A stretch of DNA of 24,288 bases from a virus. Below the pieces are notes generated by a model. That model was not told the DNA's origin. It worked only from the letters and a program-made list of their open reading frames with translations, and did no database searches. Shown here one piece after another: positions 4,655-21,378 of this stretch. The translations under genes were made by a program, and so were the position numbers. Position 1 is the first letter of the stretch. Each line of letters begins with the position of its first letter. The stretch covers positions 1 through 24,288 of the IMG/VR virus record IMGVR_UViG_3300036985_003929; one strand, written 5' to 3'.

Positions 4655-4729
4655 GGGTAGGGTTTCCCCTACCTTCTTAGGGCGGTTTCCCGGCTTTACG
4701 GGGACCGCCTTTTGAGCTATGCTTATAGC
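4655..4729 (+). promoter_or_regulatory. Terminator-promoter repeat, copy 2
   Basis: The first hairpin is GGTAGGG/CCCTACC around TTTC. The second is a convincing intrinsic terminator: GGCGGT (4681-4686) pairs with ACCGCC (4704-4709), with inner CCC/GGG pairs, and TTTT follows at 4710-4713. Its 3' arm overlaps the promoter: -35 TTTACG (4695-4700), 17-bp spacer, -10 TATGCT (4718-4723), then 6 nt to ATG 4730. This copy shows most clearly that terminator and promoter are merged. Confidence 0.85.
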
Positions 4730-4927
4730 ATGGATAAACCGACCTACACCGCCATTTTCTATCATCATTCCCTCAATGGGCCAGTTTCGCAAAGCCTTTA
4801 CAAAGAGGATAAGTTCATCGAACTTTGCGAAACGTTTCCTACCGATTGGGCTCACTTGATGGACTCGCGCACCGGCGAGATTGTCTCCTCCTGGAGCAAC
4901 GCGGACGTATCATGGAAAAACAACTAA
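4730..4927 (+). CDS. Small unknown protein, predicted leaderless mRNA
   Basis: The product has 65 residues (MDKPTYTAIFYHHSLNGPVSQ, then ELCETFPTDWAHLMDSRTGEI). No domain is recognised. ATG 4730 lies exactly 6 nt after the TATGCT -10 of repeat copy 2, so the transcript should start at the start codon. An in-frame TTG at 4712 would add residues encoded by the promoter itself and is rejected. It is followed by a 42-residue basic protein starting 1 nt after its stop. Confidence 0.7.
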   Translation: MDKPTYTAIFYHHSLNGPVSQSLYKEDKFIELCETFPTDWAHLMDSRTGEIVSSWSNADVSWKNN

Positions 4928-4928
4928 A

Positions 4929-5057
4929 ATGAAGATACCGAACTGGCTGCACAACTCAGGAAAACCTAAGCAGACCAAAGGTCTGTGCAAGGGCCAAGTG
5001 CGTGCCCGCAAAGAGGCGCTTCGCGCTCTGAAAAAACAACTTGCTGCCATCAAATAA
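4929..5057 (+). CDS. Very small basic protein
   Basis: A 42-residue ORF, strongly basic: MKIPNWLHNSGKPKQTKG, then RARKEALRALKKQLAAIK. The C-terminal half should form an amphipathic Lys/Arg/Leu/Ala helix, which could bind nucleic acid or a host protein; this is inference from composition. It starts 1 nt after the upstream stop, so translation may be coupled. Short but supported by position and composition. Confidence 0.55.
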   Translation: MKIPNWLHNSGKPKQTKGLCKGQVRARKEALRALKKQLAAIK

Positions 5058-5079
5058 ACACTCATAAGCAACCAAACCG

Positions 5080-5337
5080 ATGACCCGAAAACAATTCTAC
5101 GAAAAATATGGTGATGTGAAGGTCAAGTTTTCTTCATATTACAAATACACCTTCACCTATACTGGAAATCTTCCAGATGGTGGTAAAATTTCAGTTGATT
5201 ATGGTGCAAATGCTGATGACATTTATCGGTTTGAGGTAGGTGCAGATTGTGAAGAAATCATCAATTCTCTTGAACCTTATGCTGGAACTGCTTATGATAA
5301 GGATGGCAAAAAAGTTGATGAGTTTTACGATTATTGA
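5080..5337 (+). CDS. Small unknown protein from an AT-rich block
   Basis: The 85-residue protein (MTRKQFYEKYGDVKVKFSS) is rich in Tyr, Asp and Lys, with alternating hydrophobic strands (YKYTFTYTGNL, KISVDYGA) suggesting a small beta-rich fold. No family is named with confidence. Together with the next two genes it forms a block visibly more AT-rich than its surroundings, similar to 1153-1874, which suggests a shared foreign origin. The start is not overlapped and has no clear Shine-Dalgarno sequence. Confidence 0.65.
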   Translation: MTRKQFYEKYGDVKVKFSSYYKYTFTYTGNLPDGGKISVDYGANADDIYRFEVGADCEEIINSLEPYAGTAYDKDGKKVDEFYDY

Positions 5338-5346
5338 GGAACTGAA

Positions 5347-5586
5347 ATGAAAAAACCTTATTTGCTGATTGCTGGAGACAATTATTACCCTTCTGCTGAT
5401 ACTGGTGATTGGGTTGGGTGTTTCTCTACCTATGAAGAAGCAAAGGCACAAGTGGAACCCAGAAAAACCAACGGATATACCGTAAATGTTCGGGATTGGG
5501 GAAAAACCAACGGATATACCGTAAATGTTCGGGACTGGGGTTGTGATTGGTATGAAATTGTAGACCTTCGTGAATGGACTGAATAA
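5347..5586 (+). CDS. Small protein with an internal 13-residue tandem duplication
   Basis: The 79-residue protein begins MKKPYLLIAGDNYYPSADTGDWVGCF and continues STYEEAKAQVE, typical of small phage proteins with one alpha-beta unit. The segment KTNGYTVNVRDWG occurs twice in a row, encoded by the 39-bp tandem repeat at 5462-5539. Without the extra unit the protein would have 66 residues. GAGGA lies 6 nt upstream of ATG. The duplication keeps the frame, so the gene is probably still made. AT-rich like its neighbours. Confidence 0.65.
   Translation: MKKPYLLIAGDNYYPSADTGDWVGCFSTYEEAKAQVEPRKTNGYTVNVRDWGKTNGYTVNVRDWGCDWYEIVDLREWTE
5462..5539 (+). repeat. 39-bp in-frame tandem duplication
   Basis: Units 5462-5500 and 5501-5539 differ at one base (GGGATTGGG versus GGGACTGGG), a synonymous T/C change. 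Thirty-nine bases equal 13 codons, so the frame is kept. The near identity indicates a recent slippage or unequal recombination event within this lineage. Confidence 0.95.
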
Positions 5587-5615
5587 TGATTGAAATGACT
5601 AACGATTGAAAAACT

Positions 5616-5804
5616 ATGACTGACATTGAACAACTGCACCAAGATTTTCTGCGGGACTTTAACGAACTGCTGCAACGTTATGATGCAGAGTATGAAGTTT
5701 ATGATGATGTTCCAGAGATTGTCTTTCATGGCATTTATCAAGATGGAGAAACCATAAGACCTTATAGTGACATGACTCTGCCCCGTTACATCAACCCGAA
5801 CTGA
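5616..5804 (+). CDS. Small acidic unknown protein
   Basis: The 62-residue product (MTDIEQLHQDFLRDFNELLQ) has an N-terminal helix followed by an acidic, Tyr-rich stretch (DAEYEVYDDVPEIVFHG). No known motif. Last of the three AT-rich genes. The metallophosphoesterase gene starts 1 nt after its stop, so the two are probably co-transcribed. Confidence 0.6.
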   Translation: MTDIEQLHQDFLRDFNELLQRYDAEYEVYDDVPEIVFHGIYQDGETIRPYSDMTLPRYINPN

Positions 5805-5805
5805 A

Positions 5806-6615
5806 ATGACTGCGATGAAAGTAAGAGTGGTCAGTGACCTCCACCTTGAGTTCTGTGATCGGGGCGATGGAGTTCCCGATCTGGGAAGTGGTGACGTTCT
5901 AGTTCTTGGTGGTGACATCTTGTGCGCTAAGCACTTTAAAAAGGATGGGCCTTTGCGTGCCGTGTACACCAACTTCCTGAAAAAGTGCGCTGATAACTTC
6001 GCCCGAGTACTGTATATCGCTGGCAACCACGAGCACTATGGTTACAACTACGAGGGGACTTGGAACGTTATCAGGGAGGCTTTGCCTGATGGCGTGGAGT
6101 TGCTCGAGGATAGTGCGGTGGAGTTGGGCGAATGGGTGTTCATCGGCTCAACGTTCTGGACGGACTTTCGTGGCGAAAACGCTCTGGAAATGATGGAGGC
6201 GGCGCAGTGCATGAATGACTACAAAAGCGTTCGCATCACCCACAACTACAGGAAGATGTGCCCGGACGACACGTTGGGGTTTCACAAAGCCTCTAGGAAG
6301 TTCCTTGCGGGCAAACTTGAAGAGTACGAAAATCGGAAGGTGTGGGTTCTAACCCACCATGGCCCGTCTTACCAGTCAGTGCATCAAATGTACCGGGCAA
6401 GTGGCATAGCCAATGGCGCCTATGTCACCGATCTCGATGAGTTTATCCTTGCTCATCCACAGATCAAGGTATGGTCGCACGGTCACACTCATAACTCCTT
6501 TGACTATGAGATTGGTGAGTGCAGGGTTATCTGCAATCCACGTGGCTACTACACCGGGGTAAACTCCAACAACCTCAATCACGACTTCAATCCTCTATTC
6601 GAGGTGATTCTATGA
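5806..6615 (+). CDS. Calcineurin-like metallophosphoesterase
   Basis: The 269-residue protein carries the full metallophosphoesterase motif set: SDLH (D11, H13), GGD (D37), GNHE (N74, H75), THHGP, and GHTH near the C-terminus. These residues bind two metal ions and act on phosphomono- or diesters. Substrates in the family range from nucleic acids to cyclic nucleotides and phosphoproteins, so the target here is unknown. There is no signal peptide, so it is probably cytoplasmic. ATG 5806 is 1 nt after the previous stop; ATG 5815 is a possible alternative. The next gene overlaps as ATGA. Confidence 0.88.
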   Translation: MTAMKVRVVSDLHLEFCDRGDGVPDLGSGDVLVLGGDILCAKHFKKDGPLRAVYTNFLKKCADNFARVLYIAGNHEHYGYNYEGTWNVIREALPDGVELLEDSAVELGEWVFIGSTFWTDFRGENALEMMEAAQCMNDYKSVRITHNYRKMCPDDTLGFHKASRKFLAGKLEEYENRKVWVLTHHGPSYQSVHQMYRASGIANGAYVTDLDEFILAHPQIKVWSHGHTHNSFDYEIGECRVICNPRGYYTGVNSNNLNHDFNPLFEVIL

Positions 6616-6824
6616 CTGACGAACAAATCATCCAACTTGCCACAAAACACTTTAGTTACTTTGCTGAATACGCTGCTACAGGTTGGATTGCTGATACTGA
6701 AGACCTCTTGAAGTTTGCCCTGGCCATTCACGAGAACGGTTACAATAAAGGGTACGACGAAGGGTACGAGATGGGGTTCGAGTACCGAGACAACTTTGAC
6801 AAAGGGTACGCAAACAAAAGCTAG
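6612..6824 (+). CDS. Small unknown protein with Gly-Tyr repeats
   Basis: The 70-residue product starts MTDEQIIQLATKHFSYFAEY. Its C-terminus carries repeated GY motifs (NGYNKGYDEGYEMGFEYRDN and DKGYA), possibly a flexible or helical aromatic tail. ATG 6612 overlaps the metallophosphoesterase stop (ATGA) and has GAGGTG just upstream; a longer reading frame from 6519 is only an extension over the previous gene. The TAG stop is the first triplet of repeat copy 3. Confidence 0.65.
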   Translation: MTDEQIIQLATKHFSYFAEYAATGWIADTEDLLKFALAIHENGYNKGYDEGYEMGFEYRDNFDKGYANKS

Positions 6825-6895
6825 GGCGGTTAACCGTACCTGAGAGGGCGGTTTGCCCCCTTTACTTTTCAGGCGTTTTAAGCCATAATTAAAAC
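6822..6895 (+). promoter_or_regulatory. Hairpin-promoter repeat, copy 3
   Basis: A 74-bp copy containing the GGTTAACC palindrome and a GGGC/GCCC hairpin with loop GGTTT. The -35 is TTTACT (6861-6866), the spacer 17 bp, and the -10 CATAAT (6884-6889). TAAAAC then leads to ATG 6896. An in-frame TAA directly before the ATG rules out any earlier start in that frame. It also supplies the upstream stop codon. Confidence 0.85.
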
Positions 6896-7465
6896 ATGAA
6901 CAAAATCGTTTGCCACCTCGGCGACCCCCGCGTCGCCAAGCCTGCTTCTCTCGCCGAATACGGCAAGCTGCGCGAGAAAATGATTCAGCGTCCCTGGGAA
7001 GCTGTCTCCGAAGTTGATTTCGTCCATCTTGTGACTGAACTCGGCTGCCCGTTCTACGGTGCGCTTCTGAACGGTCGCGACCTGATGGATTTGCAGTTCG
7101 AGAAACTCTGCTGGCGAACTCAATCCCTTGTTGGCCTTGACTTCGACGTATGTCATATCTCTGCCGACAACATGGCCAAGCACTTCCAGTACCTTGGTCT
7201 CAAGCCTTGGCTCGGTTACTATACCTTTAGCAACGACCCTGCCAATGGCGGGGAGTCTTACAGGCTCCTGTGGCGCGTTGACACCGACCTTAACTTGAGC
7301 TATGACGAGTGTGCTCGCGCCCTCAAGAAAATGCGTGCAATGACCAACAATCTTGCCGACAAACACGCTGCGAACCCTACTCGCATGTGGCAAGGAACCA
7401 CCAGCGGTTTCTTCCACTACGCTGCCGACGGCAAACGTCTCAACCTGAAGGAGCTGGCGAAGTGA
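6896..7465 (+). CDS. Primase-polymerase (AEP)-like protein, tentative
   Basis: The 189-residue protein has features of archaeo-eukaryotic primase-type domains. These are a GLDFD strand that could give the D-x-D metal site (D82, D84), a YYTFSND segment, YRLLWRVD (as in kyRvvf of RepB/PrimPol proteins), and a late NPTRMWQGT motif with a C-terminal HYAADGKRL turn. AEP enzymes make primers or copy DNA. A classic third catalytic Asp is not obvious and the protein is short, so it may be a reduced or inactive relative. It is predicted leaderless from repeat copy 3 and is the largest gene placed directly behind a repeat except the DUF932 gene. Confidence 0.45.
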   Translation: MNKIVCHLGDPRVAKPASLAEYGKLREKMIQRPWEAVSEVDFVHLVTELGCPFYGALLNGRDLMDLQFEKLCWRTQSLVGLDFDVCHISADNMAKHFQYLGLKPWLGYYTFSNDPANGGESYRLLWRVDTDLNLSYDECARALKKMRAMTNNLADKHAANPTRMWQGTTSGFFHYAADGKRLNLKELAK

Positions 7466-7683
7466 CTCAACGAACAGTGGCTGTGAGGCCAGTCTCAACA
7501 AAGGCGAAGAACCGTTTTGCCAACATCATGGATAACAACCCTATCTGCACCGTAGAGCAAGACACAGGAGAGGAACTCTTTCTTGTGTCCGAAAACCGGC
7601 GCTACTCCTTCTGGGTTAGCACTCGAACTGGGTCAAACCGTTTCGGCAGCAAGGTTGATGGGCACTGGGAGATTGTCTCGTGA
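7462..7683 (+). CDS. Small unknown protein
   Basis: The 73-residue product reads MTQRTVAVRPVSTKAKNRF, then a compact domain with VEQDTGEELFLVSENRRYSF and a C-terminal GHWEIV strand. No family identified. GTG at 7462 overlaps the previous stop (GTGA). ATG 7528 in the same frame would start at MDNNPIC and is a possible alternative. The GTG is preferred because the same overlap pattern recurs throughout the window. Confidence 0.6.
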   Translation: MTQRTVAVRPVSTKAKNRFANIMDNNPICTVEQDTGEELFLVSENRRYSFWVSTRTGSNRFGSKVDGHWEIVS

Positions 7684-7883
7684 AAGAACTACCCGATGAC
7701 TTGCGGCTGCGAATCATGTGGCAAGTTGCCGTAACCTCCGCAATCGAAGGCCAAGGCGAAGCTTACAAAATCTACGCCAAACTATTATACTGGCACCTGA
7801 CCGATACCGGCCCCAAAATCTATCTGGACGAACCCATCACTAAGGAGCAGTATAATGAGAGCAAAAACCAGGGTAATTCTTGA
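7680..7883 (+). CDS. Small unknown protein
   Basis: The 67-residue protein (MKELPDDLRLRIMWQVAVTS) is helical, with YKIYAKLLYWHLTDTG in the middle. No domain is recognised. GTG 7680 overlaps the previous TGA. The 3' end carries AAGGAG (7842-7847), the Shine-Dalgarno sequence of the following gene, which starts 29 bases before this stop. Confidence 0.6.
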   Translation: MKELPDDLRLRIMWQVAVTSAIEGQGEAYKIYAKLLYWHLTDTGPKIYLDEPITKEQYNESKNQGNS

Positions 7884-8034
7884 AATGGCGATTGAAGCAG
7901 GTGTGCGTCGTGGATGGCACCGTGCTCACAAGCATGTTGAAAATCCCACTCCCAGTGCTATCATGGAACAGATTGATGAGCATGTAATGTCTGAGATCTA
8001 CGAATATTTCACGTTTGACGAGGAGGATTTCTGA
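7855..8034 (+). CDS. Small conserved-type cyanophage protein
   Basis: A 59-residue ORF: MRAKTRVILEMAIEAGVRRG, then HRAHKHVENPTPSAIMEQI and an acidic end (YFTFDEEDF). I recall closely similar small proteins in many cyanophages, all of unknown function. The start is well supported by AAGGAG 7 nt upstream, although it overlaps the previous gene. Its own end carries AGGAGG (8021-8026) for the next gene, with a TGATG overlap. Confidence 0.75.
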   Translation: MRAKTRVILEMAIEAGVRRGWHRAHKHVENPTPSAIMEQIDEHVMSEIYEYFTFDEEDF

Positions 8035-8258
8035 TGACTGATCGTGAAGCATTTGTCGAGTTTCTCAGGGCGGGGGCTGTCCTTGTTCTCGCTGTGGTGG
8101 TCGGGCCTGCCCTATTAGCCGCGTTGTTTTTCTCCGGTGAACCCCAGTCTGTGAAGAAATTCGAGGTTGTAGATACCTACCGAACATGCGACGTTGTGCG
8201 TTACACTGACCGCAGTAATACCTGGCACTACTTTTTAGATTGCTGCAAGGGCGGTTAA
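8034..8258 (+). CDS. Small membrane protein
   Basis: The 74-residue product has one hydrophobic segment at about residues 13-33 (AGAVLVLAVVVGPALLAALFF), probably a single-pass inner or thylakoid membrane anchor. A mixed domain of about 40 residues with three Cys (RTCDVVRY and LDCCKGG) follows. ATG has AGGAGG 7 nt upstream. The last codons, GGC GGT TAA, are part of repeat copy 4, so the C-terminal GG and the stop are supplied by the repeat. Function unknown. Confidence 0.65.
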   Translation: MTDREAFVEFLRAGAVLVLAVVVGPALLAALFFSGEPQSVKKFEVVDTYRTCDVVRYTDRSNTWHYFLDCCKGG

Positions 8259-8320
8259 CCGTACCTGGGAGGGCGGTTGGCCCCCTTTGCTTCTGGGGCA
8301 AAAGGCGCTATAGTTAAAGT
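8247..8320 (+). promoter_or_regulatory. Hairpin-promoter repeat, copy 4
   Basis: 74 bp. GGTTAACC palindrome, GGGC/GCCC-type hairpin, then a further dyad CCTTTGC/GCAAAAGG around the -35. The -35 is TTTGCT (8286-8291), the spacer 17 bp, the -10 TATAGT (8309-8314), then TAAAGT and ATG 8321. In-frame TAA at 8315-8317 blocks an earlier start. It contributes the stop codon of the upstream gene. Confidence 0.85.
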
Positions 8321-8488
8321 ATGAAACTCAAGTTCCCTCTTCGCGGGCTCGACGCTCGCCTAACAGCCGCCTTCTTCGGCATGTTTCTTGGTGCGGTGAT
8401 TGGCGGCCAAACTACCCTCCTCTTGATTAGTTTTCTAGGGATGCTCGTATTCTACACTCGCTTTTACAACAGTATCAATGAAAACTGA
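8321..8488 (+). CDS. Very small membrane protein, predicted leaderless
   Basis: A 55-residue ORF: basic start (MKLKFPLRGLDARL), then hydrophobic residues from about 15 to 48 (AAFFGMFLGAVIGG and TTLLLISFLGMLVFY), likely two short membrane helices. ATG is 6 nt after the -10 of repeat copy 4. The nucleotidylyltransferase gene starts inside its last codons (11-base overlap), so translation is likely coupled. No family recognised. Confidence 0.65.
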   Translation: MKLKFPLRGLDARLTAAFFGMFLGAVIGGQTTLLLISFLGMLVFYTRFYNSINEN

Positions 8489-9011
8489 ACCCATCCGCTA
8501 CGAACGCTCCGTGACCTTCGGTCGCTTCAACATTGCTCACTCCGGCCATGTGCAGCTGGTTCAGATGATGCTTGAGCACGGTGACGAGGCGCACGTTTAC
8601 GTGTCCGACGGCAAGGACAACAACGACTGGGATCTTCGTGTGCTTTTGCTGTCACATCTTTGCAGGGAAGCGAACCTTGATCTGAATCGGGTATACTTTA
8701 GGAAAGCTAAGAGTCCGTTCGAAGCAGTTGCTGGCGCCGTGGAATCTTCCCCGTGGCAGGAAGCTGTGATTGTTCTCGGCTCCGATCAACAAGAGATGGC
8801 GAGGAAACTCGGCGAGGTTTATGATTGCGCAACGATCATCAACCGCCGCACGAACTCCTCGACGCAAATGCGATTCTTCCTCGATGCGGAAGACTTCCGC
8901 GAAGATCTTGTTGCTCTGTACTCCGGGGACGAATACGCAACGACCTTGGCTATGATCCTTCGTAAAGAGGAGCTCCACCGTGACCGAAATTCTAAAGTCC
9001 AAGCTGCGTAA
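8478..9011 (+). CDS. Nucleotidylyltransferase superfamily protein (HxGH type)
   Basis: The 177-residue protein has the N-terminal signature of the cytidylyltransferase-like / NMN adenylyltransferase superfamily: FGRFNIAHSGH with H21-x-G-H24. A late SSTQMR (128-132) corresponds to the ISSTxxR motif that binds the triphosphate. GSDQQEMARKL lies in the position expected for substrate contacts. Such enzymes join a nucleotide to a phosphorylated partner (NAD, CoA or CDP-lipid precursors). In phages, NadM-like versions take part in NAD synthesis, but the substrate here cannot be read from sequence. It follows a small membrane protein and overlaps the next gene, which has its own AGAGGAG. Confidence 0.8.
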   Translation: MKTEPIRYERSVTFGRFNIAHSGHVQLVQMMLEHGDEAHVYVSDGKDNNDWDLRVLLLSHLCREANLDLNRVYFRKAKSPFEAVAGAVESSPWQEAVIVLGSDQQEMARKLGEVYDCATIINRRTNSSTQMRFFLDAEDFREDLVALYSGDEYATTLAMILRKEELHRDRNSKVQAA

Positions 9012-9201
9012 CCTGCTGCTCGCTACACCTAATCAGAACATCTTTCCGCCTGAGCCTTGGGATGACGACGATCTTCGTGACGCTGCCAGAATTGTTCAGG
9101 ATTTCGTCAATCTCGACCAAGGTGTAATCGACGATTCCAATCCCTGGAAGGAGTGGCTTGATCGGTGGCGTTTCTACGAAACTGCCCGCAAGGGCGGTTA
9201 A
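8980..9201 (+). CDS. Small acidic unknown protein
   Basis: The 73-residue product starts MTEILKSKLRNLLLATPNQN, with an acidic PWDDDDLRDAARIVQDF helix and a WKEWLDRWRFYET segment. GTG at 8980 is supported by AGAGGAG 7 nt upstream and overlaps the nucleotidylyltransferase gene by 32 bases. Its final KGG and TAA lie in repeat copy 5. No domain recognised. Confidence 0.65.
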   Translation: MTEILKSKLRNLLLATPNQNIFPPEPWDDDDLRDAARIVQDFVNLDQGVIDDSNPWKEWLDRWRFYETARKGG

Positions 9202-9263
9202 CCGTACCTGGGAGGGCGGTTTGCCCCCTTTCGCTTTGGGCGAAAATGAGCTATGCTTATAGC
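9190..9263 (+). promoter_or_regulatory. Hairpin-promoter repeat, copy 5
   Basis: 74 bp and almost identical to copy 10. GGTTAACC palindrome, GGGC/GCCC hairpin, and a spacer dyad TTTCGC/GCGAAA. The -35 is TTTCGC (9229-9234), the spacer 17 bp, the -10 TATGCT (9252-9257), then TATAGC and ATG 9264. ATGCT-TAT-AGCAT forms an inverted repeat across the -10 and start codon. Confidence 0.87.
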
Positions 9264-9440
9264 ATGGAAAAGATGAAAGTTTGGATGGCTTATTTCGCGG
9301 TTATGTACGAGGGGGAGTTCGGTCTGGAGCTCTTCTTCAACAAGGAGGATGCTCAGAAGTACCTGGATGAGAACGCTGGGCAGTACGAATGGGCTGGGGA
9401 TGGCCTGGAGTGCGTTTTGGTAGAGATGGAGGTGAACTAG
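9264..9440 (+). CDS. Small unknown protein, predicted leaderless
   Basis: A 58-residue single-gene unit between repeat copies 5 and 6: MEKMKVWMAYFAVMYEGEFG, then FFNKEDAQKYLDENAG and a final LVEMEV strand. It resembles small one-domain phage proteins of the alpha-beta kind but no family is named. An in-frame ATG at 9246 (adding SYAY) would start inside the promoter and is rejected. Its TAG stop is the first triplet of repeat copy 6. Confidence 0.65.
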   Translation: MEKMKVWMAYFAVMYEGEFGLELFFNKEDAQKYLDENAGQYEWAGDGLECVLVEMEVN

Positions 9441-9511
9441 GGCGGTTAACCGTACCTTTTAGGGCGGTTCGCCCCCTTTCGAAAACGGCCAAAACACGCT
9501 ATAGTTATATT
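9438..9511 (+). promoter_or_regulatory. Hairpin-promoter repeat, copy 6
   Basis: 74 bp, only 174 bp after copy 5, so the two flank a single small gene as a cassette. The -35 is TTTCGA (9477-9482), the spacer 17 bp, the -10 TATAGT (9500-9505), then TATATT and ATG 9512. It keeps the GGTTAACC palindrome, but the spacer dyad is different (CGAAAACG). Confidence 0.85.
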
Positions 9512-9670
9512 ATGGAAAACGACCTCAAGCAACAAATCCTCGACATCGTCGAGTCCGCACGCCTGGCCCGCCAGGAGGCCCTGAAGCCCGGTGGCGACGG
9601 ATACGCCTTTGTCTCCGGCTACGCTACCGCCGCTCTAGAGCGGATCGCCAAGCTCGTGGAGGAAGCCTGA
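9512..9670 (+). CDS. Very small helical protein, predicted leaderless
   Basis: A 52-residue ORF (MENDLKQQILDIVESARLAR, then YATAALERIAKLVEEA), almost entirely amphipathic helix. It could be a small dimerising regulator, but this is a guess from composition. ATG is 6 nt after the -10 of repeat copy 6. It ends in TGATG with the kinase gene and carries that gene's GGAGGA (9658-9663), so the two are tightly coupled. Confidence 0.65.
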   Translation: MENDLKQQILDIVESARLARQEALKPGGDGYAFVSGYATAALERIAKLVEEA

Positions 9671-11690: not shown

Positions 11691-11819
11691 ATGCGGTACA
11701 TGTGTGTGCATCTGTTGCTTTCTGGCGGAAAGACCGAGTGGCGCTGGGTTCCTTGGGGTAAACACGCTCTCGACGATTTGCGTAAACAAGGCTACGTAAT
11801 TATTGGATATCATGAATAG
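11691..11819 (+). CDS. Very small unknown protein
   Basis: A 42-residue ORF: MRYMCVHLLLSGGKTEWRWV, then WGKHALDDLRKQGYVIIGYHE. The pattern of two strands around a helix resembles a tiny alpha-beta unit. ATG is 1 nt after the exonuclease stop and the TAG stop belongs to repeat copy 7, so both ends fit the local gene grammar. No family known. Confidence 0.6.
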   Translation: MRYMCVHLLLSGGKTEWRWVPWGKHALDDLRKQGYVIIGYHE

Positions 11820-11890
11820 GGCGGTTAACCGTACCTGGGAGGGCGGTTTGCCCCCTTTTGCCGGAGGCGAAAATGAGCTATGATTAAGTC
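11817..11890 (+). promoter_or_regulatory. Hairpin-promoter repeat, copy 7
   Basis: 74 bp. GGTTAACC palindrome, GGGC/GCCC hairpin, and a spacer dyad near TTTTGCC/GGCGAAAA. The -35 is TTTTGC (11856-11861), the spacer 17 bp, the -10 TATGAT (11879-11884), then TAAGTC and ATG 11891. The upstream ATGAGC found in copies 5, 9 and 10 is present but leads into an in-frame TAA, showing it is not the true start. Confidence 0.87.
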
Positions 11891-12145
11891 ATGAAAAAAG
11901 AAACCGCTATGACCCTCCCCCCCGCCGCGCAGGCGGTACGTGACGCTGCGTTTGAGCCTTGGCAATCCACTGACACTCCAGAATCCATTGCCGCCGCCGC
12001 CCTGCGGGCTGCTGCGGAGCAGGTGGTGCCACACCGCGACACGCCTCTCCTTGGCGATGACGCTAGCTACGCTGATTGGAACGCCCGCGATGATGTGCGC
12101 GACCAACTCCTCGCCATCGCCGCCGAGCTGGAGGGTGCAAACTGA
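11891..12145 (+). CDS. ALRAAA-type paralogue 1, unknown function, predicted leaderless
   Basis: The 84-residue protein is one of three related products here. Shared landmarks are a PPAAQAVRDAA opening, an Ala-rich helix AAAALRAAAEQV and the C-terminal LLAIAAELEG. From memory, similar proteins are frequent in Synechococcus and its phages. Function unknown; the helices suggest a small helical bundle. ATG 11891 is 6 nt after the -10; ATG 11909 (MTLPPAAQ) matches the paralogue starts better and is an alternative. The next paralogue overlaps as TGATG. Confidence 0.7.
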   Translation: MKKETAMTLPPAAQAVRDAAFEPWQSTDTPESIAAAALRAAAEQVVPHRDTPLLGDDASYADWNARDDVRDQLLAIAAELEGAN

Positions 12146-12763: not shown

Positions 12764-13002
12764 TGGGAAACAGTTTTGTTTTTCTTCGTGTAGTGGGTAA
12801 TTACGGTCTGATCGTAAATACCATTTTTGGGCAGTTCTTTGACATGCGGCTGGCCCTGGTGATTAGCCTGTTACTGAGTCTCATAAGCATCCCCTACTAT
12901 GCTAAACACAGACTCTGGGACACTGTGCTTTTCATCGCATTCATCATGTCTATTAACCTGGCCAGCGTACTCAATGGAGTGCCTGGTTGCCGCGATCTTT
13001 GA
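12763..13002 (+). CDS. Small membrane protein, two or three helices
   Basis: The 79-residue product is mostly hydrophobic: LALVISLLLSLISIPYY (about 29-45) and TVLFIAFIMSINLASVL (about 53-70) are clear membrane helices, and the N-terminal GNSFVFLRVVGNYGLIVN may be a third. A short tail has one Cys. Possible roles include superinfection exclusion or lysis support; nothing in the sequence decides between them. Start overlaps the previous stop (TAATG). Confidence 0.65.
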   Translation: MGNSFVFLRVVGNYGLIVNTIFGQFFDMRLALVISLLLSLISIPYYAKHRLWDTVLFIAFIMSINLASVLNGVPGCRDL

Positions 13003-14461: not shown

Positions 14462-14480
14462 GACCTCTATACCCTCTGCG

Positions 14481-14759: not shown

Positions 14760-14771
14760 TCCGGAGGCAAC

Positions 14772-14936
14772 GTGAAACAAGAAGAGTGGGAGGAACTCCT
14801 ATCAATTCGTAAAGAAATGAATGCCAATTTAATGGCACAGAGTACGGAAACCCAAGAAAAGTATGTGCAACTTCTAGTAAAGTCCCTGGAAGGCAAAGGC
14901 GACGGTCCCATCCGAGGTACGGTTTCCCCTACCTGA
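14772..14936 (+). CDS. Very small helical protein
   Basis: A 54-residue ORF: MKQEEWEELLSIRKEMNANL, then ETQEKYVQLLVKSLEGKG, probably one long helix or coiled coil. GTG 14772 has a clear GGAGG 4 nt upstream, one of the best canonical ribosome sites here. The final residues (GTVSPT) and TGA are encoded by repeat copy 8, which suggests the repeat arrived or changed after the gene and extended its tail. Confidence 0.6.
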   Translation: MKQEEWEELLSIRKEMNANLMAQSTETQEKYVQLLVKSLEGKGDGPIRGTVSPT

Positions 14937-14988
14937 TGGGGCGGTTTGCCCCCTTTGCTTCTGGGGCAAAAGGCGCTATAGTTAATGT
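14915..14988 (+). promoter_or_regulatory. Hairpin-promoter repeat, copy 8
   Basis: 74 bp. The first dyad is GGTACGG/CCCTACC-like instead of the GGTTAACC palindrome; the second is the GGGGC/GCCCC hairpin. The -35 is TTTGCT (14954-14959), the spacer 17 bp, the -10 TATAGT (14977-14982), then TAATGT and ATG 14989, with in-frame TAA at 14983. From CCCCC to the -10 it is the same as copy 4. Confidence 0.86.
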
Positions 14989-15195
14989 ATGGAAAACGAC
15001 CTTTACACTTTCACCCTCTGCCGCGCCGACTGGAAGCGGGTGGTTCAAGCCTTGCGCAACGAGGCTTTTAACCTCTCTCAAGAGTCCAACCGCGCCTGCG
15101 AGAAAGGTTCTCGCGACTACGGCACTCTGCTGTGGGAAGAGACCGCGATTCTCAACGCCATCGCCTCCGACATTGACTTCATCTTGCCCGAATGA
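14989..15195 (+). CDS. Small unknown protein, predicted leaderless
   Basis: The 68-residue protein starts MENDLYTFTLCRADWKRVVQ. It is helical (ALRNEAFNLSQESNRACEKG, then LLWEETAILNAIASDIDFIL). ATG is 6 nt after the -10 of repeat copy 8. The start MENDL resembles the product behind copy 6 (MENDLKQQ), perhaps a hint of shared 5' sequence. The membrane-protein gene overlaps as ATGA. Confidence 0.67.
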   Translation: MENDLYTFTLCRADWKRVVQALRNEAFNLSQESNRACEKGSRDYGTLLWEETAILNAIASDIDFILPE

Positions 15196-15416: not shown

Positions 15417-15568
15417 CTGACACCGAATACCGACAACTTTACAACTTGCTTCGCCGCTTCCAACTAGAGCAAGTTACCATCGGGGGCAAGACCTATAATG
15501 CCTGCGACACGCTGTTGCGCGAACTTTTCCCTTACTACTACAGCCAACATCAAGAACAAGAACGATGA
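15413..15568 (+). CDS. Very small unknown protein
   Basis: A 51-residue ORF: MTDTEYRQLYNLLRRFQLEQ, then TIGGKTYNACDTLLRELFPYY. Both ends overlap neighbouring genes as ATGA, which strongly supports it despite its size. No family recognised. Confidence 0.65.
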   Translation: MTDTEYRQLYNLLRRFQLEQVTIGGKTYNACDTLLRELFPYYYSQHQEQER

Positions 15569-16557: not shown

Positions 16558-16736
16558 CTAAACTCACAGCACTCGAACTTTACGTGGTCATCGACACCCT
16601 GCTTCACTCTTTGAGTCACGGTAAGCATTGGACTGGTTCTGCTACAGAGGAAGCAAGAGACAATGTATTCAGAAAACTTCAAAGTGTCATGAATGAAATA
16701 ACTGTTGATCTGACTGTAGAGGATAGCAATGACTGA
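16554..16736 (+). CDS. Small unknown protein
   Basis: The 60-residue product MTKLTALELYVVIDTLLHSL continues with HWTGSATEEARDNVFRKLQSV, a helical protein of a kind common in cyanophages. Its N-terminal MTKL matches the start of the gene before it, possibly from shared 5' sequence. ATGA overlap upstream. The next gene starts 8 bases before its stop. Confidence 0.65.
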   Translation: MTKLTALELYVVIDTLLHSLSHGKHWTGSATEEARDNVFRKLQSVMNEITVDLTVEDSND

Positions 16737-17061
16737 CCAAAACCCAATCACCCCACCACCGGAGCTGGTGCAGCAGTGGGCCAGCGAGAGCCTAGCAACT
16801 CAGCACCTCTGCACCCAAGCCGCTCGCTGGGGGGCTGACCAGGAGCTGGAGGCGTGTGTGAAATGGATGAACGACAACGTGCCCTACGGTTACGGACATC
16901 GTGGCGAGGTGCTTCGTATTTCCCGCCGCCCCAAGCCGCCGAGCTTGAAGGAGCAGGCGCTTGCCAGCGTAAAACGATTTGAGGAGAACGGTGAGTTTTT
17001 CTCGGACCAGATGCGTGAGCTTGAGTTTATTCGTAAAGCACTGGAGCAACTCGATGACTGA
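16729..17061 (+). CDS. ITPPPEL/RRPKPPSL paralogue 1, unknown function
   Basis: The 110-residue protein has the fixed blocks NPITPPPELVQQW, AARWGADQELEACVKW, RRPKPPSLKEQAL and a final IRKALEQL. Three such proteins occur in this window. From memory, the family is found in marine Synechococcus and their phages, with no known role. Between blocks the sequence is variable. The GC-rich codon use matches the block motifs. A 30-residue membrane peptide gene overlaps its 3' end. Confidence 0.75.
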   Translation: MTDQNPITPPPELVQQWASESLATQHLCTQAARWGADQELEACVKWMNDNVPYGYGHRGEVLRISRRPKPPSLKEQALASVKRFEENGEFFSDQMRELEFIRKALEQLDD

Positions 17062-17146
17062 GTCGCTAGATAAGATTGACTCCTTGCTGTGTCTGATCTT
17101 CTTTTTTGGTTTTCTTGTTGGATTATTTGTAGGTGGAATTCGATGA
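17054..17146 (+). CDS. 30-residue membrane peptide
   Basis: MTESLDKIDSLLCLIFFFGF continues with LVGLFVGGIR, a single strong membrane helix after a short polar start. It overlaps the previous gene by 8 bases and the next as ATGA, the same grammar used by the larger genes. It lies exactly between two members of the same paralogous family. Small hydrophobic phage peptides can alter membrane proteins, but no function can be assigned. Confidence 0.55.
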   Translation: MTESLDKIDSLLCLIFFFGFLVGLFVGGIR

Positions 17147-17478
17147 CTAACCAACACCCGATCACCCCACCGCCGGAGCTGTTCCAGATGTGGGAGGACG
17201 ACATCCTTAACGAACGAGACAACGTTGATCATGTGCTGGACTGCGCCTGGAAGGATGGCTTCCTTGCTGGCGCCGACCAAGAGCTGGAGGCGTGTGTGGA
17301 GTGGCTGTTCAAGTACCAGTACGACGGCGAGGTTCCATTACTCCGCGCCGCCCGCCGCCCCAAGCCGCCGAGCTTGAAGGCGCAGGCGCTTGCCATTCTT
17401 GATGACGCTAACCGTGGCGACTTAGGTGATGACGAAATGGCAACCATCCGCCGCGCACTGGAGGCGCTTCCGGAATAA
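17143..17478 (+). CDS. ITPPPEL/RRPKPPSL paralogue 2, unknown function
   Basis: The 111-residue product has QHPITPPPELFQMW, GADQELEACVEW, RRPKPPSLKAQAL and IRRALEALPE. It differs from its neighbour in all linker regions but keeps the blocks in order. ATG 17143 overlaps the stop of the membrane peptide (ATGA), with AGGTGG upstream. The conserved Trp, Cys and RRPKPP blocks imply a structural constraint rather than decay. Confidence 0.75.
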   Translation: MTNQHPITPPPELFQMWEDDILNERDNVDHVLDCAWKDGFLAGADQELEACVEWLFKYQYDGEVPLLRAARRPKPPSLKAQALAILDDANRGDLGDDEMATIRRALEALPE

Positions 17479-17510
17479 GTAAGGTAAAACTATCCAACCG
17501 AAAAAGCAAA

Positions 17511-17828
17511 ATGCTCTCGACTCAAACACGGATCCGCCTTGAAGATATCGCTGCGAGGATTGCGGGAGGATTGAACGTTTCCCTCGAAGAAATGCAGTGG
17601 GCAACGAAGTGGAGCGAGCACAATCGCTCCGCCGCTGAAATTTTACGGAGAGCACGGCGGCGCGCAATCAACGGGGAACCAGAGAAAGGTTCTCTCGATG
17701 AACTTCTCGATGGCATGGATCTAGGAGACCCAGACCCCTCTAACCACCTGATTGGTCCGCAAAACCCTGTGGATCTGGCTGAGTGGTTTAAACAAGACAA
17801 ACCCGAAGATTGGAGAACACGGGACTAA
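17511..17828 (+). CDS. Unknown helical protein
   Basis: The 105-residue protein MLSTQTRIRLEDIAARIAGG continues with NVSLEEMQWATKWSEHNRSA, a basic EILRRARRRAIN helix and an acidic tail (LDELLDGMDLGDPDPSN). The arrangement recalls small phage proteins with a three-helix N-terminus. No motif assigns a role. There is a 32-nt gap upstream without promoter or Shine-Dalgarno sequence. Its TAA overlaps the next ATG. Confidence 0.65.
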   Translation: MLSTQTRIRLEDIAARIAGGLNVSLEEMQWATKWSEHNRSAAEILRRARRRAINGEPEKGSLDELLDGMDLGDPDPSNHLIGPQNPVDLAEWFKQDKPEDWRTRD

Positions 17829-18052
17829 TGTTAGACTTATCTTACCTGGCGGAGCAACCCAGCGAAGCCCAAGAAGAGGCTGTAAAGAAGGCTGTGGAAG
17901 CAGAGTGTGTACGTGCAATCGTAACATATCTGACTGAAGTTGCCGACACAATGGAGGCCAATGACATTGAATCTCTCAATGTTCCTTCGCTTCGTGCAAT
18001 GGCTGAACAGTTCACCAACCGACTTGAAAATGACCAAACAGAAAAAAACTGA
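17828..18052 (+). CDS. Small acidic helical protein
   Basis: The 74-residue product starts MLDLSYLAEQPSEAQEEAVK. It is acidic and mostly helical (AECVRAIVTYLTEVADTMEA, then LRAMAEQFTNRLEND). ATG 17828 overlaps the previous stop (TAATG). The next gene starts 23 bases before its stop. No family recognised. Confidence 0.62.
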   Translation: MLDLSYLAEQPSEAQEEAVKKAVEAECVRAIVTYLTEVADTMEANDIESLNVPSLRAMAEQFTNRLENDQTEKN

Positions 18053-18254
18053 AGTTCTGATCGACGATTGTTTCTATATCAAGAAACAACGCTGGGGCAC
18101 TTTCGTGTCGGTCCACAAAGACGGCAACGCACTCATTACTTCCCTCACCGAGGACCAGTGTTTGAACGCAACACGGTGGTATCTGAAAGCACAGCAAGAC
18201 GGTTTCCCCGACGACAGCAAAAGCTATGATGGCGTGGTAGGTGGGAAACTTTGA
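18030..18254 (+). CDS. Small basic protein
   Basis: The 74-residue product MTKQKKTEVLIDDCFYIKKQ continues with RWGTFVSVHKDGNALITSLTE and an ATRWYLKAQQDGFPDD helix: two or three strands and a helix. A longer frame from 17940 is only an extension over the previous gene. Its stop overlaps a TTG start (TTGA). Function unknown. Confidence 0.62.
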   Translation: MTKQKKTEVLIDDCFYIKKQRWGTFVSVHKDGNALITSLTEDQCLNATRWYLKAQQDGFPDDSKSYDGVVGGKL

Positions 18255-18394
18255 AACCAGCTCTTGACCCGACAACTCCCTGGTTCGAGTTTCTTTCCTA
18301 TTGCGAATGTTGTTGGTCGCTGGGTATTGAGCCCTCCGTTCACAGATTCGCCCGCTACCAAGCCTACTACCGTTCAGTTTTGCCTCAGTCATGA
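18251..18394 (+). CDS. Very small Cys/Tyr/Trp-rich protein, TTG start
   Basis: A 47-residue ORF: MKPALDPTTPWFEFLSYCEC, then CWSLGIEPSVHRFARYQAYY. TTG 18251 overlaps the previous TGA, and its own TGA overlaps the next ATG. I recall short phage proteins with WFEFLSYC and RYQAYY elements. The three clustered Cys may bind a metal. The 4-base overlaps at both ends make it credible despite the TTG start. Confidence 0.6.
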   Translation: MKPALDPTTPWFEFLSYCECCWSLGIEPSVHRFARYQAYYRSVLPQS

Positions 18395-18684
18395 CAACCC
18401 AGTCCCAACAAGACATCGCACAAATTTGCGGTGAGATACGCGAAATGCTTATTGAAAAGAACCGCAAGTACGGCGATTCCGCCTTAAACCCAATGCGGAT
18501 TTTCAGTAAAGCGAGTACAATGGAGCAACTCAAAGTTCGCCTGGACGATAAGCTGAGTCGTTTGCGAAATGTGCAAGAGGATGAAGACGAGGACGTTGTT
18601 TCCGACTTGATTGGCTACCTTGTTCTGTTCAAGGTTGCTCAAATGCAAAACCGTCGTGCCCAGATGCGAGAGCAAGGTATATGA
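18391..18684 (+). CDS. MazG-like / Nmad1 (DUF1599)-like protein
   Basis: The 97-residue protein has the pattern IREMLIEKNRKYGDSALNPM, then KVRLDDKLSRLRN and an acidic SDLIGYLVLFK helix. The E-K-x-YGdS and R-x-DK-sRL elements are typical of the all-alpha MazG/Nmad1 group. MazG proteins hydrolyse (d)NTPs or modified nucleotides; Nmad1 members are predicted to be linked to phage DNA modification. That link is attractive beside the TET/JBP gene, but the two are about 3.6 kb apart, and a plain MazG-like role is equally possible. ATGA overlaps at both ends. Confidence 0.7.
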   Translation: MTTQSQQDIAQICGEIREMLIEKNRKYGDSALNPMRIFSKASTMEQLKVRLDDKLSRLRNVQEDEDEDVVSDLIGYLVLFKVAQMQNRRAQMREQGI

Positions 18685-18908
18685 ATCGGCCGAGTGAGTG
18701 GATTGAAGAAGATCGCGAAGACGTCGTTACCGCGATTGTGGATGGAATCGTCTCTCAGTTGACGCTTGAGCAAATGCGTCAGATTGTGTGGGATCTGCAC
18801 TACGAGCAAACGATTTGGCAAGACTGGCCTGACTTGTGGGATCTTGCGGAAGATTACTCACCGGATTTGCTTGATCAGTTCAACGAACCGGAATCTGGGC
18901 TGGCCTAG
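18681..18908 (+). CDS. Small conserved-type cyanophage protein
   Basis: The 75-residue acidic protein has MNRPSEWIEEDREDVVTAIV, LEQMRQIVWDLHYEQTIWQD and LAEDYSPDLLDQF. I recall near relatives in cyanophages, with no known function. ATG overlaps the previous stop; the TAG stop lies at the left end of repeat copy 9. Confidence 0.68.
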   Translation: MNRPSEWIEEDREDVVTAIVDGIVSQLTLEQMRQIVWDLHYEQTIWQDWPDLWDLAEDYSPDLLDQFNEPESGLA

Positions 18909-18979
18909 GGCGGTTTCCCCTACCTGGAAGGGCGGTCTGCCCCCTTTCGCCGGAGGCGAAAATGAGCTATGCTTATAGC
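18906..18979 (+). promoter_or_regulatory. Hairpin-promoter repeat, copy 9
   Basis: 74 bp. First dyad TAGGG/CCCTA, second the GGGC...GCCCC hairpin, and a third perfect spacer dyad TTTCGCC/GGCGAAA around GGA. The -35 is TTTCGC (18945-18950), the spacer 17 bp, the -10 TATGCT (18968-18973), then TATAGC and ATG 18980. The upstream stop codon TAG is its first triplet. Confidence 0.87.
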
Positions 18980-19231
18980 ATGGAAATCACCGCTCTGCAA
19001 CAACTGGCCCTGAAGGCCGCTTTCGACCTTAACCAAGATCTTCTCACCTCCGACGCCGCATGGGGTTACTCCGGCTCCAAAGAAGACTTTGACCGAATCT
19101 ACCAAGAGTGCTTTGTGATCGCTCGCGATGAGATCGGCCCCGATAAGTTTATTGATGAGATCCTTGATACGTTCTGGGATATTCAGCTCGAGATTATGAA
19201 CGGTAATCGCGCCGTTGATTGGTATCTTTGA
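18980..19231 (+). CDS. Small acidic protein, predicted leaderless
   Basis: The 83-residue protein starts MEITALQQLALKAAFDLNQD. It is helical and acidic, with YSGSKEDFDRIYQECFVIAR and LDTFWDIQLEIMNGN. ATG lies 6 nt after the -10 of repeat copy 9; the in-frame ATG at 18962 would encode part of the promoter (SYAY). No family recognised. Confidence 0.67.
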   Translation: MEITALQQLALKAAFDLNQDLLTSDAAWGYSGSKEDFDRIYQECFVIARDEIGPDKFIDEILDTFWDIQLEIMNGNRAVDWYL

Positions 19232-19245
19232 AACTGGAAACCGTA

Positions 19246-19590
19246 ATGACTGACCAACACCCGATCACCCCACCGCCTGAGCTGGTGCAGCAGTGGATGA
19301 CTGAAGCGCACGATCAACCGCCAGGCCCTGATGCTCGTGTGATTGCCACCCAAGCCGCCCGCTGGGGTGCCGACCAGGAGTTGGAGGCGTGCGTGAAATG
19401 GGTATCCGAATACTGCCCGTACTTCGGAGATTATCCTATGCCTGAAGACAAACTCCGCGCCGCCCGCCGTCCCAAGCCGCCGAGCTTGAAGGAGCAGGCG
19501 CTTGAACAACTACGGTTCCTGCAGCAGTGTGGTGCGGGTCACCGAGACACCGACAAAATCCTCCGCGCCCTCGAACAACTCACCGACTGA
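19246..19590 (+). CDS. ITPPPEL/RRPKPPSL paralogue 3, unknown function
   Basis: The 114-residue product has QHPITPPPELVQQW, AARWGADQELEACVKW, RRPKPPSLKEQAL and ILRALEQL. It is closer to paralogue 1 (16729) than to paralogue 2 in the blocks. ATG 19246 is chosen because the paralogues start MTDQ or MTNQ. A TTG at 19228, overlapping the previous stop as TTGA, is a real alternative and would add six residues. Confidence 0.75.
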   Translation: MTDQHPITPPPELVQQWMTEAHDQPPGPDARVIATQAARWGADQELEACVKWVSEYCPYFGDYPMPEDKLRAARRPKPPSLKEQALEQLRFLQQCGAGHRDTDKILRALEQLTD

Positions 19591-19595
19591 CTACC

Positions 19596-19757
19596 ATGAA
19601 AAGCCTTGACGACTACACAGCACTTGGCGCCATTGTCTTAGTGCTTTTGCTAATGATTGCAACAGCTTGGTGGTGGCTCCCCCAAAAGTGGCAGGCATGT
19701 GAACGGCTTTATGACAATAAGCCAGCGCAGATTTTCTGCCTGCTGGCATCTAAGTGA
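19596..19757 (+). CDS. Small single-pass membrane protein
   Basis: A 53-residue ORF: MKSLDDYTALGAIVLVLLLM continues with IATAWWWLPQKWQACERLYD. Residues about 9-28 form one membrane helix ending in three Trp at the interface, followed by a short polar domain with two Cys. Its stop overlaps the GAGGAG used by the next gene. Function unknown. Confidence 0.62.
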   Translation: MKSLDDYTALGAIVLVLLLMIATAWWWLPQKWQACERLYDNKPAQIFCLLASK

Positions 19758-19766
19758 GGAGAACCA

Positions 19767-20756
19767 ATGACTAACCCCTACCGGGCCATTTGCGCCGAGC
19801 TTGTTGATGCGCTGGATGCTGGTATTCCAGCCGGAAGGATTCGCATGTCCCCGCTAGCCGACCGCGCCCGCGCACTGCTGGCCGAGCCAGTAGCGGAAGG
19901 GCCGACGGATGAGGAGCTGCGGGAAATGCTTAATGAAAATGATTGGAACTATATCAGTCCAGAAACATTTGAAGACATTGCCCGTACCGTACTTGCCCAA
20001 TGGGGCCGCCCCGCCGCCGCGCCTGTGCCGGAGCCGGGGGAGAGGCCGAGGGAATTGCAGTGGCCAGCGTCAGTGGCGCAAGGCTGCCACGAAGCAGCAG
20101 CAGAAGCCGAAAGCGGCAGTCCACTCCAGCAGTTGTTGGTAGCCGCTGGCGATCTACTAGAGAGGGTCCGCGCCCGCGCCGCGTTGGCTGAGGGGGAGGT
20201 GGGCTGCATCAGCATTGATGAAATGTGTGAGATCCTTCGCTCTCTGGAGATCAAGGCCGCCGAGTACACAGACTGCACGATCCTGTACGAACTCACGTTT
20301 GAGCAGCTACGGGCAATCTGCGACACCCGCGCTTTCGCCCTCTTGGCCCAGCGCCACCCCGCGCCACCGGCTGAGGGAGAGGTGGAGGAGTTGGTGAACA
20401 TGCTCACGGGCATTGCCTATTGGAAGCGCCATGGCAAGCCGGGGAAAGACGATCCATCCCCGTTCGACATTCGCCAGGCCGATCGGCTCACCCGCGCCGC
20501 CACCCTGCTCCAGCAGCAAGCCGCGCCTGTGCCGGTGGTGGCACCTGTGCCGGTAAGCGAGCGGCTGCCGGGGCCGGAGGATTGCGATGCGGAGGGGAGG
20601 TGTTGGTGGGGTGAACCACAAATCGAAGATTCTTACGATGCAACGTGGAATCTTTGCACACAAGACGATGCCGAAGAATGGTGTACCTGGGGCACTAAGT
20701 GTGGCTGGCTCCCCGCCAATGCCCTGCCGCTGCCAGCGCCCGAGGAGACGAAGTGA
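19767..20756 (+). CDS. Large GC-rich mosaic protein of picocyanobacterial type, unknown function
   Basis: The 329-residue protein opens MTNPYRAICAELVDALDAGI, then DRARALLAEPVAEGPTDEEL. Pro/Ala-rich linkers separate helical modules, and the C-terminus resembles DUF551 proteins (PVSERLPGPEDCD, then GWLPANALPLP). From memory, such mosaics of short modules are frequent in Synechococcus and cyanophages. Composition is much more GC-rich than most neighbours. GAGGAG sits 5 nt upstream of ATG. The modular layout suggests growth by recombination. No enzymatic motif is visible. Confidence 0.72.
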   Translation: MTNPYRAICAELVDALDAGIPAGRIRMSPLADRARALLAEPVAEGPTDEELREMLNENDWNYISPETFEDIARTVLAQWGRPAAAPVPEPGERPRELQWPASVAQGCHEAAAEAESGSPLQQLLVAAGDLLERVRARAALAEGEVGCISIDEMCEILRSLEIKAAEYTDCTILYELTFEQLRAICDTRAFALLAQRHPAPPAEGEVEELVNMLTGIAYWKRHGKPGKDDPSPFDIRQADRLTRAATLLQQQAAPVPVVAPVPVSERLPGPEDCDAEGRCWWGEPQIEDSYDATWNLCTQDDAEEWCTWGTKCGWLPANALPLPAPEETK

Positions 20757-21070
20757 TGGCTATTGATCTTCACCTTCTTCCATCTTGGCCACAGAGCCAA
20801 GACTCTTTGGCAGCTCAAATGTCTGACTTAATCCAAGTTGCTAACCGGCTTGGACTTTATGACGCCGCTGATGCTGTGAAGCAGATGTCAACCCGGCTGG
20901 AACCAGTTAAATACGGCTGTCATTTTAAGTTAGAAGAGGATCAGCAGCCAGACGGTTGCGTTATTGATACTGAAGAATTTCACAACTGTGTCTATGCCAA
21001 AGAGGGTATGAGAAAAGAGCAATGCAAGTATTGGCGCATTGTTGCGCTGCCAACGGGGGAGGGCGGTTAA
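20756..21070 (+). CDS. Unknown protein
   Basis: The 104-residue product MAIDLHLLPSWPQSQDSLAA has a helical middle (MSDLIQVANRLGLYDAADAV) and a Cys-containing C-terminal part (YGCHFKLEEDQQPDGCVID, HNCVYAKEGM). ATG overlaps the previous stop (TGATG) with GAGGAG upstream. Its last codons (GAG GGC GGT TAA) lie in repeat copy 10, which supplies EGG and the stop. Confidence 0.65.
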   Translation: MAIDLHLLPSWPQSQDSLAAQMSDLIQVANRLGLYDAADAVKQMSTRLEPVKYGCHFKLEEDQQPDGCVIDTEEFHNCVYAKEGMRKEQCKYWRIVALPTGEGG

Positions 21071-21132
21071 CCGTACCTGGAAGGGCGGTTTGCCCCCTTT
21101 CGCTTTGGGCGAAAATGAGCTATGCTTATAGC
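21059..21132 (+). promoter_or_regulatory. Hairpin-promoter repeat, copy 10
   Basis: 74 bp, nearly identical to copy 5 although 11.8 kb away, which implies recent copying or ongoing homogenisation. The -35 is TTTCGC (21098-21103), the spacer 17 bp, the -10 TATGCT (21121-21126), then TATAGC and ATG 21133. The GGTTAACC palindrome and the TTTCGC/GCGAAA spacer dyad are present. Confidence 0.87.
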
Positions 21133-21378
21133 ATGAACGTTACTTACTACACCTCCCCCTTCTCCGGCAAGACCTACCAGGTGGTGCCCAACACCCTCTG
21201 GCGCCAAGCCTGGGACAGCCAGGGCAATGCTTACAAGAGCTGGTACACCGAATACAACTTCTACTTCGAAGATCGCAAAGTTACAACTACCTTCTCCCTG
21301 GATGAAAACTGCCTCACCGGCACTTTCGGTGAGCTCGAAGGCGCTTACGCCGCCTGGTCCACTTCCCCGAGGGACTGA
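21133..21378 (+). CDS. Small unknown protein, predicted leaderless
   Basis: The 81-residue protein starts MNVTYYTSPFSGKTYQVVPN. It is rich in aromatic residues and beta-type segments (YTEYNFYFEDRKVTTTFSL), with a C-terminal GELEGAYAAWSTS. No family recognised. ATG is 6 nt after the -10 of repeat copy 10. TGATG overlap with the SprT-like gene. Confidence 0.67.
   Translation: MNVTYYTSPFSGKTYQVVPNTLWRQAWDSQGNAYKSWYTEYNFYFEDRKVTTTFSLDENCLTGTFGELEGAYAAWSTSPRD

Follow-up and report, generated by a model that had tools for sequence, protein, structure and literature searches.

The model we propose for a phage record of IMG/VR (IMGVR_UViG_3300036985_003929; the whole 24,288-base stretch analysed is called the window) concerns a repeat of about 76 nt lying between its genes. 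We consider it very probable that these repeats are self-contained start cassettes, which combine GC-rich boxes with a sigma70-type promoter whose predicted transcription start (+1) is the A of the AUG, and which would thus produce leaderless mRNAs. A leaderless mRNA regulon had been put forward in the original prediction, made from the letters of the window, and it is supported by the fixed base at +1, the spacing of the -35 and -10 hexamers, the position at which coding starts and the occurrence of the same arrangement in several lineages with unlike boxes. The window contains four tRNA genes, and most of its genes are small and of a function that is not known. The repeat is present in ten copies, 60-99% identical to each other, and in nine of them (copies 2-10) a -10-like hexamer is followed by exactly 6 nt and an ATG. 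The nine hexamers, spacers and ATG coordinates given in the original prediction all agree with our re-reading of the window, and the in-frame stops that it had placed between the -10 and the ATG, or within the -10, of copies 3, 4, 7 and 8 are indeed present as TAA (CAT AAT TAA AAC ATG in copy 3, TAT AGT TAA AGT ATG in copy 4, TAT GAT TAA GTC ATG in copy 7 and TAT AGT TAA TGT ATG in copy 8). The copies, with the open reading frames (ORFs) that they precede, are the following.

Cassette 1, 177..278, + strand: leadered; boxes 177-222; -35 TTTACT 216-221; -10 TATAAT 239-244; predicted +1 A at 251; 25-nt leader without a Shine-Dalgarno (SD) sequence; ATG 276; DUF932-like gene 276-1109 (phrog_1221).
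Cassette 2, 4655..4732, + strand: -35 TTTACG 4695-4700; 17 bp; -10 TATGCT 4718-4723; 6 nt; ATG 4730; ORF 4730-4927.
Cassette 3, 6823..6898, + strand: -35 TTTACT 6861-6866; -10 CATAAT 6884-6889; ATG 6896; ORF 6896-7465, a gene that is cassette-led in 11 records.
Cassette 4, 8248..8323, + strand: -35 TTTGCT 8286-8291; -10 TATAGT 8309-8314; ATG 8321; ORF 8321-8488.
Cassette 5, 9191..9266, + strand: -10 TATGCT 9252-9257; ATG 9264; ORF 9264-9440; further in-frame ATG 9246.
Cassette 6, 9439..9514, + strand: -10 TATAGT 9500-9505; ATG 9512; ORF 9512-9670.
Cassette 7, 11818..11893, + strand: -10 TATGAT 11879-11884; ATG 11891; ORF 11891-12145, its product starting MKKETAMTLPPAAQ...
Cassette 8, 14916..14991, + strand: -35 TTTGCT 14954-14959; -10 TATAGT 14977-14982; ATG 14989; ORF 14989-15195.
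Cassette 9, 18907..18982, + strand: -10 TATGCT 18968-18973; ATG 18980; ORF 18980-19231; further in-frame ATG 18962.
Cassette 10, 21060..21135, + strand: -10 TATGCT 21121-21126; ATG 21133; ORF 21133-21378; further in-frame ATG 21115.

A profile search of 23 phage records of IMG/VR, the window and 22 others, yielded 219 usable cassettes, of which 146 are unique over promoter and start. The 6-nt rule, for which the original prediction had pointed to related phages as a check, is present in them: an ATG stands at 6 nt in 123 of the 146 unique cassettes, the others comprising seven with GTG instead of ATG at 6 nt, where the context looks non-coding, one with an ATG at 7 nt and 15 with a real leader. 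The copies with the ATG at 6 nt precede 72 unlike gene families and contain about 40 different spacer hexamers, which provides independent support for the rule. In nine representative records, the distances from G[CG]YATRnT to ATG amount to 87 cases at 6 nt and to 0-10 at every other distance between 0 and 40, and the reversed sequence gives at most 7 at every distance. A search of 84,980 species genomes of bacteria and archaea returned no copy of the repeat itself.

The sigma70-type RNA polymerase usually initiates about 7 nt past the -10. The base at the predicted +1 is A in 94% of the copies, and the preceding position 6 is C or T in 93%. The best evidence in the sequences for this +1 is provided by the 15 leadered copies, in which the base is A in 14 and G in one although no ATG is located there, C preceding it in 13 of the 14 copies with A. 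Since these copies keep A or G without any need for an ATG, the +1 appears to be fixed independently of translation. They belong to about nine gene families, hence are only partly independent, and one of them lies ahead of the sigma-factor gene (79600, minus strand) of the related phage G002. Furthermore, a -35-like TTT is positioned 17 bp from the -10 in 99% of the copies and the spacing among the upstream boxes varies; the 17 bp between the TTT(A/C/G)C-like hexamer and YATRnT fall within the 16-18 bp that separate the hexamers of sigma70-type promoters.

The same rule is kept by cassettes of different appearance. Two of the 22 relatives' records exceed 110 kb, and a 112-kb record carries genes for a long tail sheath, a DNA polymerase, a gyrase, a primase and a ribonucleotide reductase. 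The nearest isolate is the Synechococcus phage S-CBWM1 (57% identity for the DNA polymerase and 48% for the sheath), and S-TIM5 is more distant (38% and 39%); by these proteins, the lineage belongs to the cyanomyoviruses outside the T4-like group and groups with S-CBWM1 and S-TIM5. Class II cassettes differ in their upstream hairpin and in the body of the promoter (GGTTCTCAAACCGCCTA ... TATAATACTTACATG) and keep the 6 nt, the boxes of some copies in G005 and G022 are replaced by GTCAGTT...AACTGAC hairpins, and G012 and G030, which are more distant, possess versions of their own in which the 6-nt peak is clear. In the isolate S-TIM5, six sites obey the rule (predicted ATGs at 165110, 165396, 166146, 168108 and 170954 on the plus strand and at 168001 on the minus strand of JQ245707.2), most with GTGGCCCAATAGCCCTGT-type boxes, and one of the six also occurs in S-TIM54, S-TIM61 and S-TIM66; the histogram peak of S-TIM5 is small because these few sites stand among many genes. 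The maintenance of the 6 nt across unlike boxes suggests that selection, and not copying alone, preserves it, and the promoter halves of the variant cassettes likely share some ancestry. For S-PM2, S-SM2, S-SRM01 and Mic1, the total matches to the rule are near or below the reversed control.

Several observations weigh against the leaderless model. The nine window copies are homologous repeats of one element and therefore not independent events; by themselves they are weak evidence, and shared ancestry makes raw counts overstate independence. A generic sigma70 consensus scan reveals no promoter enrichment in the region (13 versus 10.4 expected), and only copy 3 passes it; because the scan scores the hexamers as mediocre, the promoter call rests on family-wide conservation and not on a consensus score. 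In S-CBWM1, the closest isolate, the distance histogram has no 6-nt peak, and a single perfect match lies within the tRNA cluster (12882-12919). Finally, 26 of the 123 copies keep an upstream in-frame ATG, mostly at a distance of 18 nt and thus within the promoter (as in copies 5, 9 and 10 of the window), which leaves room, copy by copy, for mRNAs with a short leader. According to this alternative, the cassette is a promoter, but transcription would start a few to tens of bases upstream, from a second promoter or by read-through from the upstream operon, and the spacing would merely have been inherited with the copied repeat. The homology of the copies speaks for it, as do the upstream genes, whose ends fall at or within the cassette and could give rise to read-through transcripts. 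We nevertheless hold it to be unlikely: A or G occupies exactly the +1 in 15 of 15 leadered copies; the 6 nt are constant while the box spacings vary, also in cassettes with unlike boxes; and 4-nt SD-like matches precede only 4.7% of the cassette ATGs, less than the 13% background, as would be the case for leaderless mRNAs.

The comparison of orthologs locates the beginning of the coding constraint at the cassette ATG. From codon 2 onward, the mismatches at codon positions 1, 2 and 3 number 623, 384 and 1405, and this bias is already seen in codons 2-10. An in-frame stop occurs within 12 nt upstream of the ATG in 60 of the 123 copies. The in-frame ATG at -18 is not conserved: in 31 of 41 ortholog pairs it is missing from one of the two genes. 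The notion that the true starts are located elsewhere, at an upstream in-frame ATG or GTG or at an internal ATG (codon 7 of MKKETAM..., for instance), and that the promoter sequence happens to include an ATG at 6 nt, could draw on the second Met found within the first ten codons of several products and on the later GenBank starts of two S-TIM5 ORFs. It is very improbable in view of the bias in codons 2-10, of the 86 copies out of 123 without any in-frame start codon ahead of the upstream stop, of the lack of an early second Met in most families, and of the annotated S-TIM5 starts at 168108 and 170954, which coincide exactly with the predicted ATGs. As to the two later starts in S-TIM5 (JQ245707.2), GenBank places them 28 and 11 codons downstream, in the same frame, of the predicted ATGs 165396 and 166146, and both look mis-annotated; the plus-strand ORF at 165110 has no annotation in GenBank.

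We give almost no credence to the view that the repeats bear no regulatory signal and constitute a family of recombination- or packaging-related palindromes ending in ATG by chance. The cassettes are GC-rich and partly palindromic, and their positions differ between relatives, as this view would have it; however, they are oriented with the genes and placed ahead of ORFs, their -35/-10/+1 geometry is fixed, and 15 copies serve leadered genes, including the phage sigma-factor gene.

Cassette-led genes are also distinguished by their first codons from the other genes of the same phages, the latter being taken from our own simple gene calls. Codon 2 starts with A or G in 72 of 72 cassette-led families, A is found at +5 in 90% of the cassette-led genes versus 36% of the others, and the first 40 nt are less folded (mean -2.5 versus -4.2 kcal/mol, p = 9e-9); the cassette start is thus A-rich and weakly structured, of the form AUG-RAA-AAn. 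When the cassette-led products MNEFRAYVMVG, MENKTNHGL and MNETETAPAPDTQLSPAAEAV are compared with the internal versions MRAYVMIG (9670), MANNHGL (13006) and MANLSPAAEAV (12145) of the window, we infer that a gene usually owes its first few codons to the cassette, by import or by selection, MKTEPIRYERS (window 8478) being a counter-example whose start is unchanged whether it is cassette-led or internal. The idea of the original prediction that leaderless starts could free the phage from SD selection does not weigh heavily, since SD sequences are used weakly by the remaining genes of these phages too (a 4-nt match in 24% versus the 13% background); the benefit through 70S initiation that it also named is a hypothesis.

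The GC-rich boxes contain putative hairpin arms, GGGCGGTTnnCCGTACCT and GGGCGGTTTGCCCCC, that are able to pair, with a mean folding z of -1.5 and 36% of the copies below -2; the reversed-string control folds equally well, and no U-tract is present. The arms of the main lineage, GGGCGG and CCGTACC (37 + 19 copies), pair imperfectly, and those of other copies pair perfectly (GGTACGG/CCGTACC and GGGCGG/CCGCCC). The missing U-tract and a terminator scan barely above background speak against an intrinsic terminator at box 2, and the -30 region, judged by eye, is not conserved as a T4-like MotA box would be. A search of the window for known RNAs in Rfam gave only tRNAs above threshold, and a distant BLAST of the cassette against GenBank phages gave no useful match. 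On the minus strand of G002 (L054), at 52.7-53.1 kb, tandem cassettes are followed by GTGGTTGGGTGCTCC... without a clear ORF, upstream of a tRNA; such cassettes also occur in G006, G013 and G021. They resemble promoters for a precursor RNA or a small RNA, the 5' G of which would lie at the same +1, and Rfam finds only the tRNA above threshold.

Other features of the window deserve mention. At 22160-22245, a promoter-like TTTACA...TATGCT with a GGGTGGGAAACCGCCC arm and a leader of about 30 nt lies upstream of the large ORF 22245-23639 and is possibly an eleventh, divergent, leadered copy. A 304-bp segment (5054-5357) is 97% identical to the T4-like marine phage S-PM2, although the lineage of the window phage is otherwise distant from it, and points to a recent exchange of small genes. 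The DUF932-like gene has its 3' end repeated (98%; 1053-1105 and 1951-2003) directly before the gene of a homing endonuclease (2080-2742), as an insertion event might have left it, and a 39-bp tandem duplication (97%) occupies 5462-5539 within a small ORF.

The arrangement can be compared with three known systems. Most middle and late mRNAs of the Thermus phage phiYS40 are leaderless (PMC3594737); as in our model, many phage operons are read as leaderless mRNAs in a bacterium by the host translation apparatus. The host phylum of phiYS40, however, is already rich in leaderless genes, whereas the present hosts are cyanobacteria, and the review (PMC3594737) does not describe a repeated hairpin-promoter cassette. 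Promoter early stem-loops (PeSLs) are mobile regulatory cassettes of T4-type phages (Arbiol 2010 and Comeau 2014, as cited in PMC4503421), S-PM2 being without dense PeSLs (PMC4503421). As far as these citations allow the comparison, both elements are repeated intergenic units that join a stem-loop, here a putative one, to a host-like promoter, and their presence before a given gene differs among relatives. The same genes are cassette-led in one relative and internal in another, which would be compatible with mobility between phages and gene neighbourhoods. By contrast with PeSLs as cited there, the present cassette has a start codon at its end and apparently determines the first codons, and its lineage groups with S-CBWM1 and S-TIM5, and not with T4-type phages, by DNA polymerase and tail sheath; by analogy, the cassette would work like a PeSL, but it is not classed as one. 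Finally, bacterial leaderless genes bear a TANNNT signal some 12 nt ahead of their start codon, and Cyanobacteria are not among the groups listed with this signal (Zheng 2011, PMC3160421). The signature, with the predicted +1 on the start codon, is present in 123 of the 146 unique cassettes, the first T of the -10 sitting 12 nt before the ATG; the genes of that study differ in being chromosomal and without a repeated cassette. The original prediction called leaderless translation of so many operons unusual in cyanobacteria or their phages; in cyanobacteria leaderless mRNAs are unusual, but they are not unprecedented: transcription start maps report 48 leaderless transcripts in Synechocystis 6714 and 19 in S. 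elongatus UTEX 2973. Our literature search for leaderless transcripts in cyanophages found no relevant paper.

In the mechanism that we propose for the leaderless model, each cassette would occupy the gap between two operons. The promoter geometry and its conservation, the start of coding at the ATG, the A-rich codons and the purine conserved at the +1 of the leadered copies can be read in the genomes themselves. In vivo, the RNA polymerase of the host, which might at a later time carry a phage sigma, would recognize the TTTAC-like -35 and, 17 bp further, the YATRnT -10, and would start transcription on the start codon, the +1 being the A of the AUG; expression might be early or middle. Ribosomes would initiate on the 5'-terminal AUG, so that the first gene of each operon would be read from a leaderless mRNA, and the A-rich, weakly structured start (AUG-RAA-AAn) would help this translation. 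The boxes would provide a stem-loop for the upstream transcript or a protein-binding site. A bolder proposal, plausible although we would not yet favour it, is that of a portable transcription-translation start module consisting of a hairpin, a promoter, a start codon and first codons, which could make a leaderless first gene of whatever gene follows it and swap the N-terminal codons of that gene. Two or more forms of such a module would have emerged within a clade of cyanomyoviruses (this lineage, G012/G030 and S-TIM5), and leaderless initiation would be the standard expression route for a whole gene set in a host that barely uses it.

In conclusion, leaderless phage regulons are already known from phiYS40; what is new here is a predicted leaderless regulon built from a repeated cassette, in cyanobacterial phages, with a cultured relative available. 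Leaderless start cassettes are rarely seen on such a scale. The mapping of 5' ends is feasible because the same rule is obeyed by a cassette of different appearance in the isolate S-TIM5. With the simple succession of a -10, 6 nt and ATG, the gene starts of these phages can furthermore be corrected. In most bacteria, translation without a leader is regarded as a side route, and the question of how cyanobacteria begin translation in the absence of strong SD signals is open. If the model is true, these phages would offer a natural system for the study of leaderless initiation in cyanobacteria, the rule being shared by the cultured S-TIM5, which grows on Synechococcus WH 8102.

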